Source: Salvelinus alpinus
Lineage: Eukaryota > Chordata > Actinopteri > Salmoniformes > Salmonidae
Assembly: GCF_045679555.1 (NCBI RefSeq)
Contig: NC_092087.1
Coordinates: 22,282,925 to 22,346,924 of the forward strand
Direction of reading: 5' to 3'
Length of the DNA: 64,000 bases
Every line of letters starts with the position of its first letter. The stretch's first letter is position 1. The notes under the pieces are model-generated. The model searched no databases and was not told where the DNA came from. It was given only the letters and a program-made list of their open reading frames with translations. Of this stretch, positions 6,590-41,213 are shown piece by piece. The translations under genes and the position numbers were made by a program.

Positions 6590-6781
6590 ACAACCTAAGG
6601 TGGCAAAACAGGCTGCCTAAGTATGATTCCCAATCAGAGACAACGATAGACAGCTGTCCCTGATTGAGAACCATACCCGGCCAAAACATAGAAACACAAA
6701 ACATAGAATGCCCACCCCACATCACACCCTGACCTAACCAAATAGAGAAATAAAACGGCTCTCTAAGGTCAGGGAGTGACA
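6590..6781 (-). repeat. Partial LTR, same family as the solo LTRs at 28.2 kb and 40.8 kb
   Basis: Read on the minus strand it begins TGTCACTCCCTGACC at 6781. It shares the paired segment ATTCCCAATCAGAGACAA / CTGATTGAGAACCATA with the solo LTRs at 28227-28571 and 40814-41213. The far end is not defined and the copy looks truncated. Confidence 0.55.
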
Positions 6782-22664: not shown

Positions 22665-24642
<1,978 letters not shown>

Positions 24643-24878
24643 TTATGAGAAAGTATCTGAAGAATATACAAATGAAGACAACATATTATTTCCATTTCAG
24701 TCATCGAATTGTTCTAAAATATTTGCCTTGCCAGTTGTTTGTTGCCATAGTTATGTTTTTGCCTTTACCTGTTGGTCGCTTTTTCTCTGTTCTTGTGGTT
24801 GGCTTCTGTTGTCTTGTCTTGCTGATCACCTGTTGTGGTGTTAGCAACCAACAAGATGGTGTACCCCAATCTGTGGGG

Positions 24879-26028: not shown

Positions 26029-29000
26029 TTATGCAGGTGCCACAGTGGAAACCTCTGTTTTTGATGTAGACACTTCAGAGCCATCATCTTCCTCCTTGCC
26101 AAAGAGCTGCATGATGCAAGAACGGAACTGTGGAGAAAGAATAAGAATGGAACATGAGGAAAGAGCTTCAAAATGTACAGTACGTCTACATTTAGGTAGA
26201 CATACTGTAATTCCTTTGTTAATCACTTTATTATTGATGGGTCAAAATATACTTAACCCAAATGTAAAAGTAACATGTAAAGTGTTGGTCCCATGTTTCT
26301 GAAATAAAATATCCCAGAAATGTTGTCGATATCCACAAAAGCTTATTTCTGTTACATTTTGTGCAGAAATGTGTTTACATCTCTGTTAGTGAGCATTTCA
26401 CCCTTTGCTAAGATTATCCATCCACCTGACAGGTGTGGCATATCTGGAAGCTGATTAAACAGCATTATGATTACACAGGTACACCTTGTGCTCGAGACAA
26501 TAAAAGGCCACTAAAATGTGCAGTTTTTTCACACAACACAATGCCACAGATATCTCAAGTTTTGAAGGAGCATGCAATTGTCATTCTGACTGCAGGAATG
26601 TCCAACAGAGCTGTTGCCAGAGAATGTAATGTTCATTTCTCTACCATAAGCCACCTCCAACCTCCTTTTAGAGAATTTGGCAGTATGTCCAACTGGCCTC
26701 ACAACCGCAGACCTCATGTAACCACGCCAGCCCAAGACAGGAGAAGGAGATATGTTGCGCTGCATGACACAAATGGTGGACACCAGATAATGACTGGTTT
26801 TCTGATCCACGCTCCTGCATTTTTTTTAAGGTATCTGTGTCCAACAGATGCATATCTGTATTCCCAGGCGTGTGAAATCAAGATGTTAGGGCCTATTTTT
26901 GTTCAGTGTTCATGTAGCTATCAGACTAACACACTTACCTGTTTGTTCATGAAGACATAGATAACTGGATTGTAGATGGTGGCGCTCTTGGCAAAGTAGG
27001 CAGGCAGTGCAGCAGCCAGAGGGTGGAAAGCATACCCAGGGTTAGCCGCAGAAAAGCAGGCAAAGCAGGTATAAGGTCCCCAGCATACACAGAAAGCTAT
27101 AATCATGACAACAACCATCCTGGACACTTCCTTCTCGGCCTTCTGTGTTGACTCAGAGTCTTTCTGCTGCGCAGCAACCTGTGGTCATTCAGAAGGAATA
27201 TCAAATGGTTAGATTTAACCCTTTTAATATGCCTTTTCAAAAGGTACACTTGACCATTACTGTTTTTAACAACATAGTTGCTTGCTACAGTATAGTATAT
27301 TCAAAATATCACTTACAGCACGAATGGCTAGCCACACGAAAATGTAGCAGAAGATGATCACGAACAGTGGGAAGAAGCAGCATGTAATCATGAGTGTAAT
27401 CATGTAGGACTTGACTCCAGGATCCTCATTGCCTCCGAACACATCAGGTCCGCAGGAAGTCTTCAGGCCGTGAGGCCAGTACCTGGTGGAGGGAGAAAGA
27501 TTTTGAACAATTGAGTTTCACACATCAGTGAAATAAAAAGAGACAAAAATCCCACCTGCTCCAGCCAAAGATGGGGGGGGCACACCAGAAAGCAGCCCAG
27601 ACCCAGGAGAAGATAATGCCTCCCATGGCCCATTTGCCATCAAACTTGACATTTCCAAAGGGCTTGCACACCACCACCCATCTCTCCCAAGAGATGACAG
27701 CCAGGGACCACAGAGCAGCAATACCTGTGCAGGGGAACAGTTGTACTGAAAGTTAGACACTAATTATATGTGAAAACACAGCACCGTAAGAACATGCACC
27801 AAGGAAATGGCTATAGGGAGCACTTTGTGTCGATCAATTTCTCTATACATTAATCTACAATTTCCACATATTACTGGTACAATAAATACAATTCAAATCT
27901 TTGTAAAACTGAGGAGTATCTTACCACACACAGACACAGTGTATCCCTCAAAGACACACATTGGATGTCCCAGAATGAAGTAGCCAAAAATCTGGTTGCA
28001 AACGCTGATGGTGCTTGCCAAAAGTGTTTCTCCAATGTCAGCAATAGCAAGGTTGACCAAGATCCAGTTCAGAGGGTGTTGGAGCTTCTTGAATTTTGCA
28101 GTGGCCACCAGTACCAGGCCATTGGTGAAGACTGAGGCAATGACCACAAAGATCATCCAAAGTGTTGAGAGATTGTACACCCATCTTGGAGCAATGTGGT
28201 AGTTGGGGCCCTCAAAAGGATCTGCATGTAACGTTCGTCATATGGAGGAAGAGAGGCCCAAAGCACAGCGTGGTTAGTGTTCATCATGTTTAATAAAGAC
28301 AATAAACGTGGAAAAAAACGAAACAGTTCTGTCTGGTGCAGACACACGAAGACAGAAGACAGCCACCCACAAAACCCAAAACAAAACAGGCTACCTAAAT
28401 ATGGTTCCCAATCAGAGACAATGACCAACACCTGCCTCTGATTGAGAACCATATCAGGCCAAACATAGAAAAGGGAAAACTAGACACACAACATAGAATG
28501 CACACTCAGCTCACGTCCTGACCAACACTAAAACAAAGAAAACACAAAAGAACTATGGTCAGAACGTGACACTGCAAAAGAAGAAGAGATAAAAATGTAA
28601 TATAAATTCCTGACTTATTGATATAGTCATATGCAGTGGTGTAAAGTACTTAAGTAAAAATACTTTAAAATACTACTTAAGTTGTTTTTTGGGGTATCTG
28701 TACTTTTATCTGTACAACTTTTACTTTCACTCCACTACATTCCCAAAGAAAATAATATACTTTTTACTCCATACATTTTCCCTGACACCCAAAAGTACTC
28801 GTTATATTTTGAATGCTTAGCAGGACAGAAAAATTGTCATATTCACACGCTTATCAAGAGAACATCCCTGGTCATCCCTACTGCCTCTGATCTGGCGGAC
28901 ACACTAAACACAAATGCTTAGTTTGTAAATTATAGGGGAGTGTTGGAGTGTGCCCCTGACTATGTTGAAAACAAGAAAATCGTGCCGTCTGTTTTGTTTT

Positions 29001-29659
29001 AATATAATTGATCCATACTTTTACTTTTTAGACTTAAGTATATTTTAGCAATTACATTTACTTTTGATACTTAAGTAGATTTAAAACCAAATACTTTTAG
29101 ACTTTTACTCAAGTAGAATTTTACTGGGTGACTTTCACTTTTACTTTAGTCATTTTTAATTAAGATATCTTTACTTTTACTTAAGTATGACAATTGGGTA
29201 CTTTTTCCACCACTGGTCATATGAGGACAGTAAACAAACATTTTGAACAGAATGTGTGCATCAAAAGTTATGACCAAGAAAAACACTGTCCTGACACAAA
29301 TTATTCAATGTATTGGTTGTATCATTGTGCGTACTGCTAATGCCAGTTACAAATGGTATGTCTGCTGTTTGTGAAATAACGTATGAGAGAACTACACTGC
29401 AACAAAAGACCTTCAGCAACATCAATTTAATTTAAAAAGGACACCATTACTCTCTGTAAATCTATAATAACTCCAATCTTTTGGGGGAATATACAGAATT
29501 AAGCTCTTTCAATAGTTCTACCAAATGATGTCACCCTCAGGCACTACACTGAACAAGATGTACTGTACCTTTGGTGTTATTGCTGTTGGTGTAGGCGAAA
29601 CCTGAATCTCTCGTTGTATCGTCGTGCCGCCTGGCAGCAAAGACTCCTAGCTCTGCCAT
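26029..29659 (-). CDS. opn1lw: Long-wave-sensitive cone opsin, copy B
   Basis: Six coding exons on the minus strand: 29659-29569, 28221-27925, 27724-27556, 27482-27317, 27178-26939 and 26127-26029; 1062 bp, 353 aa. The start gives [20 protein letters not shown]; an N-glycosylation site NNT follows. Counterion CVFEGY, SWERW, chloride-site WPHGLKT and retinal Lys ([11 protein letters not shown]) are all present. Tuning sites read Ala180, His197, Phe277, Thr285, Ala308; Phe277 differs from copy A and, by the known LWS rules, should shift absorbance a few nanometres to shorter wavelength. Introns are swollen by mobile elements: intron 1 holds a solo LTR and a hAT MITE, intron 5 a decayed Tc1 piece. 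The LTR lies 5 bp from exon 2 and duplicates the acceptor, so splicing may be disturbed even though the coding exons are intact. Confidence 0.93.
26250..26920 (+). mobile_element. Internally deleted Tc1-like transposon in LWS-B intron 5
   Basis: The left part carries GTAAAGTGTTGGTCCCATGT and the N-terminal helix-turn-helix of a Tc1 transposase ([20 protein letters not shown], then [19 protein letters not shown]). The sequence then jumps at about 26742 to the C-terminal end ([13 protein letters not shown]) and the 3' flank ending TTTTTGTTCAGTGTTCATG. The catalytic DDE region is missing. The equivalent intron of copy A (22764-22982) is only 219 bp and lacks the element, so it arrived after the two copies separated. 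Confidence 0.8.
28227..28571 (-). repeat. Solo LTR in LWS-B intron 1, beside the exon 2 acceptor
   Basis: 345 bp, TGTCACGTTC...GAACGTTACA on the minus strand, flanked by the 5-bp duplication CTGCA (28222-28226 and 28572-28576). No internal retroelement sequence is present, so it is a recombined solo LTR. It shares its family with 40814-41213. It contains an 18-bp imperfect hairpin, TGGTTCCCAATCAGAGAC against GCCTCTGATTGAGAACCA (about 28402-28450). Confidence 0.9.
28634..29215. mobile_element. Non-autonomous hAT MITE in LWS-B intron 1
   Basis: 582 bp, starting CAGTGGTGTAAAGTAC and ending GTACTTTTTCCACCACTG, with an 8-bp target duplication GTCATATG on both sides (28626-28633 and 29216-29223). 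CAG ends with an 8-bp duplication are the hAT signature. The interior is AT-rich and full of inverted TACTTAAGTA words, with no transposase. Confidence 0.9.
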
Positions 29660-40813: not shown

Positions 40814-41213
40814 TGTAACGGCAGCCTTCCTCCTCTTCGTCTGAAGAGGAGGTGTAGCAGGGATCGGACCAAGACGCAGCGTAGTTGGTGCTCAACATAT
40901 TTAATAATACGAACTGTGAACACTACAACAATACAAAAATAACAAAATGTGGCAAACCGATACAGTCCTGGCTGGTGCAGAGAAAACACGAAGACAGAAG
41001 ACAGCCACCCACAAAACCCAAAACAAAACAGGCTACCTAAATATGGTTCCCAATCAGAGACAATGACCAACACCTGCCTCTGATTGAGAACCATATTAGG
41101 CCAAACATAGAAACAGACAAACTAGACACACAACATAGAATGCCCACCCAGCTCACGTCCTGACCAACACTAAAACAAGTAAAACACACAAGAACACTGG
41201 TCAGAACGTGACA
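40814..41213 (-). repeat. Solo LTR with 5-bp target duplication
   Basis: 400 bp, TGTCACGTTCTGACC at 41213 (minus) to CCGTTACA at 40814. Flanked by ATATC (40809-40813 and 41214-41218). Same family as 28227-28571. It landed exactly at the 3' tail of the L2-like LINE fragment. Confidence 0.9.

Follow-up and report, generated by a model that had tools for sequence, protein, structure and literature searches.

In LWS copy B, the sws2-proximal red cone opsin gene of this locus, a solo LTR lies exactly at the 3' end of intron 1, and its 5-bp target duplication is the splice acceptor itself. The acceptor TGCAG therefore stands twice on the minus strand, once adjoining exon 2 (the inner copy, 28222-28226) and once, with its native context, on the far side of the element (the outer copy, 28572-28576). 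This structure was found in the window, by which we mean the whole stretch of 64,000 nucleotides of Salvelinus alpinus DNA that was analysed, and we regard it as certain. What it does to the transcript can be judged from the sequence with less assurance. Our preferred explanation, to which we give an even chance, is that the two sites would be used side by side with a mostly broken product, which would make copy B a gene of reduced output rather than a dead one.

The opsin array and the solo LTR of copy B

The array lies on the minus strand and comprises an intact SWS2 gene (48770-46582), LWS copy B (29659-26029), LWS copy A (22665-24642) and a third, dead LWS copy (15807-15212 and 8742-8569). 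Copy B is made up of exon 1 (29569-29659), exon 2 (27925-28221), exon 3 (27556-27724), exon 4 (27317-27482), exon 5 (26939-27178) and exon 6 (26029-26127), and its CDS of 353 codons contains no internal stop and no frameshift. With its first 321 residues as query, the best PDB match was human LWS (8iu2, E 6.6e-177, residues 11-321), and those retinal, disulphide and chloride-site residues that were checked are intact. K312, which we take to be the retinal lysine, and H197 and K200, presumably the chloride-site histidine and lysine, are all there, and together with the best match they mark copy B as an LWS cone opsin. Copy A, with six exons, a product of 357 residues and an ordinary intron 1 acceptor, served as the comparison. 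The first part of the dead copy holds the upstream region and an exon 1 with an in-frame stop, 83% identical to copy A over 551 bp, and a further part is an intron 4/exon 5 piece carrying stops; its last two parts lie about 6.5 kb apart, though they are neighbours in the gene map, and the ORFs in between are, we presume, LINE-like. By eye, copy A has an apparent 5' UTR intron directly before the start codon (24640-24820, minus strand), and no such intron was seen by eye upstream of the start codon of copy B, where a TATA-like GTATATAAA stands about 80 bp from it. Intron 5 measures 811 bp in copy B and 219 bp in copy A (a gain of 592 bp), and that of copy B holds, in the region 26430-26960, a plus-strand ORF resembling what we take to be a Tc1-like transposase.

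The element in intron 1 of copy B occupies 28227-28571 (345 bp, minus strand, TGTCACG...CGTTACA). Another solo LTR of this family (40814-41213, minus strand, 400 bp) has the same ends, which fixes the ends of the family, and carries a duplication of its own, GATAT. The two copies are 92.3% identical over a 260-column alignment, and a partial, more distant match (76%) lies at 6604-6734 (both by blastn within the window). From the TG...CA ends, together with a duplication that is 5 bp in both copies, we read them as solo LTRs; a full-length member of the family was not found by blastn within the window. When both strands of the window were searched for TGTCA...TTACA at 300-450 bp flanked by identical 5-mers, only the two LTRs were returned, against a mean of 0.06 in 200 single-base shuffles, the motif having been picked after the element was seen. 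An exact-pattern search of genome contigs (33 bases) and of viral contigs (22 bases) gave no copies, nor did blastn in plasmids and phages, as is expected of collections that are not of fish.

Insert and one duplication together amount to 350 bp. The native polypyrimidine tract of intron 1, TTTTTATCTCTTCTTCTTTTGCAG (approximately 28577-28595, minus strand), is found beside the outer TGCAG, and the undisturbed acceptor of copy A reads TTTTATCTCAG. Thus the original prediction was borne out as to the solo LTR at the end of intron 1, the duplication that equals the acceptor, the original tract left with the outer copy 350 bp away and the ordinary acceptor of copy A, and the coordinates that were checked hold. 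An ATTAAA in the opsin sense (28289-28294, minus strand), which by its sequence is a possible poly(A) signal, is common to both family copies and is followed by a T/G-rich stretch, while the element in copy B also has two AATAAA on the opposite strand, absent from the second copy. Set against each other, these signals are a weak guide to the sense in which the LTR lies with respect to the opsin gene. Farther up in the same intron lies a non-autonomous element of 582 bp, presumably hAT-like (28634-29215, minus strand), with the 8-bp duplication CATATGAC; with these two insertions intron 1 of copy B is 1347 bp long, as compared with 284 bp in copy A.

Predicted competition between the inner and the outer acceptor

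Acceptors and donors were scored with approximate weight matrices (the acceptor matrix being a vertebrate one), and the 8414 AGs of the window served as background. The inner acceptor scored -3.04, at the 70.4th percentile, below the worst of the nine unaltered LWS acceptors of the window, which range from 1.27 to 9.02 (92.8th-99.9th percentile), while the outer one, at 9.08, scored just above the best of them; the outer context joined to exon 2, which represents the acceptor before the insertion, scored 10.66. At -20..-5 the outer site has a pyrimidine fraction of 0.94 and the inner site one of 0.44, a measure for which no matrix is needed; the nine LWS acceptors range over 0.56-0.94 and four SWS2 acceptors over 0.75-0.875. 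A weak acceptor is found elsewhere at the locus in intron 2 of copy A (1.27, pyrimidine fraction 0.56), with no strong rival just upstream of it. Other AGs of copy B intron 1 that scored above 2 were 28959 (2.52), 28527 (4.99) and 28332 (2.29), and the donor of this intron, AAAG/GTACAG (29563-29572), scored 0.53, the weakest of ten LWS donors (next 1.81).

The choice among these sites is predicted to decide the product. Use of the inner site would give an exon 2 of 297 nt and the normal opsin reading frame. Use of the outer site would give an exon of 647 nt and, as had been claimed, add 350 nt, which is not a multiple of three (350 mod 3 = 2), with a predicted stop at codon 45. An acceptor inside the LTR, at 28527, would add 306 nt, in frame, with a stop at codon 36, and the one at 28332 would add 111 nt with a stop at codon 50, whereas skipping of exon 2 would keep the frame with the loss of 99 residues.

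We propose that the boundary of intron 1 and exon 2 was the exact insertion point of an LTR retrotransposon, which took the acceptor TGCAG for its 5-bp target and later shrank to a solo LTR. Most transcripts would then take the outer site, include 350 nt of LTR and run into the stop at codon 45, and since this stop lies upstream of the later exon junctions such RNAs would probably be degraded; a minority may be spliced at the inner AG by way of a CTAAC and a tract of the LTR and yield normal opsin. Mixed splicing of this kind is suggested by the exact boundaries and duplications, by a strong outer site set against a weak inner one for which rescue seems possible, and by the weak donor. Against it, weak acceptors do exist at the locus, and the matrices that set the two sites apart are approximate. 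Furthermore, exon definition would favour the inner site, with its exon of 297 nt, over the outer, with 647 nt, and the 17 residue differences between copies A and B, described below, give no apparent sign of decay in copy B.

Structural masking of the outer AG was also considered and was dropped. The fold of 28180-28640 gave a z of -4.35, with the outer UGCAGUG paired to the end of the MITE that lies upstream, and in partition functions over four stretches at spans of 100-400 the unpaired probability was 0.00-0.03 for the outer and 0.14-0.21 for the inner AG. But the inner AG is thus mostly paired as well, as are, at the single span of 100, the copy A acceptor (0.01-0.03) and the empty site (0.07-0.24), and the result depends on span, the outer AG being open at span 60 (0.79-0.81). 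Predicted RNA pairing does not, in these models, separate the inner from the outer site.

The inner site is better furnished than its score suggests. It had been claimed that LTR sequence has taken the place of its pyrimidine tract, and this is correct for the stretch adjacent to the AG, where there is none; farther up inside the LTR, however, a tract is present, CCTCTCTTCCTCC (28244-28256, minus strand, -35..-23), and with it a branch-point-like CTAAC (28273-28277, minus strand) whose A, at -53 from exon 2, is a candidate by motif. At -34..-21 of the inner site 13 of the 14 positions are pyrimidines, and the AG is preceded by 107 nt free of AG, a stretch as long as the at least 100 nt that characterises distant-branch-point exons and a length reached by 28 of the window's 8416 AG intervals, both strands counted. 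The second family copy has its last AG 14 nt from its own end and hence no such AG-free end. After the site had been seen, we framed four rules that look jointly for a branch-point motif, a tract and the absence of AG. The inner site passes all four, the outer site just the two loose ones and neither of the strict; 26, 59, 106 and 214 of 8401 background AGs pass, and so do 1, 3, 5 and 7 of the 13 authentic acceptors. The CTAAC, the tract and the AG-free stretch at the LTR end suggest that the inner site could work; whether it is used is a separate matter.

One may argue from this that the LTR end amounts to a full substitute for the acceptor, that the inner site would be efficient and copy B fully functional, and that the LTR merely lengthened the intron. 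We consider this a serious but doubtful alternative. CTRAY, tract and lack of AG occur together at only 26 of 8401 AGs by the strictest rule, the inner site included, but the rules are post hoc and poor at marking real acceptors, and the strong outer site itself fails both strict ones. The uninterrupted CDS of copy B and its intact checked residues fit a functional gene, and so would, should those species carry this LTR, the accounts, in the portions of the sources available, of lws1 and lws2 beside sws2 as intact in six salmonids (PMC9309310) and of both as expressed in Atlantic salmon smolts (PMC13193417). On the other side, the outer site comes first and has kept its native context, and for PTB exon 11, in the part of PMC1431707 that deals with it, a candidate at -51 that scored high and had a tract beside it proved unnecessary.

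At the other extreme, copy B might be essentially without normal mRNA, owing to poly(A) cleavage within the LTR, to skipping of exon 2 or to exclusive use of the outer site, which we hold to be improbable. The opsin-sense ATTAAA with its T/G-rich stretch, shared with the second family copy, makes early cleavage within intron 1 possible, the exon 1 donor is weak, in-frame skipping would remove 99 residues, and one LWS copy of the array is already dead. This is countered by 353 codons that have kept both frame and checked residues, although gene conversion from copy A could maintain both. A private or segregating insertion in the sequenced individual, or an error of the assembly, is very unlikely, the exact target duplication and element ends speaking against a misassembly.

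Precedents for an insertion at a splice acceptor

The closest precedent for the copy B insertion, as far as the available text of PMC7349775 describes it, is the SINE of canine merle at the boundary of intron 10 and exon 11 of PMEL17. There too a retroelement sits at a splice acceptor with a target duplication that involves the original acceptor, as the duplication in copy B contains it, and there too rival acceptors compete, one of them with an abnormal product (predicted for copy B), while the element brings a pyrimidine tract. Unlike copy B, merle has a reverse-orientation SINE whose duplication measures 15 bp and whose poly(T) varies in length (PMC7349775), whereas the solo LTR of copy B has a duplication of 5 bp, the acceptor itself, and an end that offers a candidate branch point along with a candidate tract. 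De novo Alu insertions at NF1 acceptors are similar in that a retroelement landed in the AG or the tract (4 of 14 Alu insertions in the part of PMC3219598 consulted); those, unlike the case of copy B, caused skipping of the downstream exon in patients. With the distant-branch-point exons of PMC1431707, as partly described there, the inner site shares an AG-free stretch of more than 100 nt and a putative branch point farther off than the usual 40 nt, but in copy B this candidate lies at only -53 and was supplied by the LTR. Introners likewise recruit splice sites from the duplication that a mobile element makes of its target, but they make new introns (PMC9860276, seen in part), whereas the element of copy B landed at the edge of an existing one, copy A having intron 1 at the same place.

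Among the matches listed in the open-licence literature on salmonid or teleost LWS and on the mechanism, the titles and abstract openings do not describe this insertion. The kind of event is already known from the canine merle SINE; the case is neat and testable, and the phenomenon is not new. What is notable in copy B is that the 5-bp target is the acceptor itself. If mixed splicing is true, the gene is a clean natural experiment in which two identical acceptors compete, one in the old context and one in that of the LTR, and it would explain, by a concrete change in cis, why a fish might use its tandem red opsins unequally. It is also a reminder that, judged by its coding exons alone, copy B would be called functional.

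Probable gene conversion between the copies and the predicted tuning of copy B

The overall dN/dS between copies A and B is 0.038/0.107 (NG86), and the divergence is very uneven. dS is 0.68 in exon 1 (30 codons only, in a gapped alignment), 0.13 in exon 2, 0 in exon 3, 0.02 from exon 4 into the early part of exon 5 and 0.10 over what remains, the split within exon 5 having been chosen after the differences were seen. Exon 3 is identical at 167/169 positions, exon 4 at 165/166 and intron 4 at 137/138, and introns 2 and 3 are diverged between near-identical exons. When intron 1 of copy B, without its two inserts, was aligned to its counterpart in copy A, the score was 1.5, against a mean of -20.1 and a best of 2.5 in 50 shuffles. 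These data are best read as those of old duplicates in which gene conversion has probably evened out much of exons 2-6, from which it follows that the intact exons of copy B can be borrowed from copy A. The claim that the coding exons of copy B are intact was thus confirmed in the letter, but it has little bearing on function: exons 2-6 appear to have been homogenised with those of copy A, so that an intact reading frame says little about whether copy B works, and we rejected it as proof. In the stretch aligned to human LWS the 17 residue differences comprise 6 derived in A, 4 derived in B and 7 that are not polarisable, and by this count copy B appears to have no excess of residue change over copy A.

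At tuning site 261 (human 277), in exon 5 (26939-27178), copy B has phenylalanine and copy A tyrosine, while site 164 is alanine in both; from these residues, the absorption of copy B is expected to lie at a somewhat shorter wavelength than that of copy A. With A164 and F261 of the five-site residues, and if a shift of -7 nm is taken for each, copy B would come to about 546 nm. A broader idea, which we rate as a long shot, is that the 3' end of this LTR family in the gene sense might be a portable acceptor module, made up of branch point, tract and AG-free stretch, that needs only an AG in the target duplication, such that insertions on acceptors would mend themselves and could set the level of splicing. 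Here it would tune how much is made of a red opsin that differs spectrally (copy B, Y261F). The one further full copy that the window contains, with an AG 14 nt from its end, speaks against it.

The place of copy B beside an intact sws2 fits the lws1/lws2 of PMC9309310, as far as the available part of that source goes, where Lws3 is given as 546 nm. By its position copy B is a candidate for lws1 or lws2, and by the estimate of about 546 nm for lws3. S164A is given for O. mykiss and S. salar in the accessible portion of PMC5686071. In six salmonids several lws3 and lws4 genes are reported, in the same partial text of PMC9309310, as missing, partial or dead, and cloning from Atlantic salmon yielded eleven visual opsins of full length as expressed genes. 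In that species lws2 predominates, lws1 increases in smolts and expression of lws3 is very low (PMC9309310 and PMC13193417, both in part), with 8 counts of lws3 to 1,240 of lws2 at 800 dd (PMC9309310).
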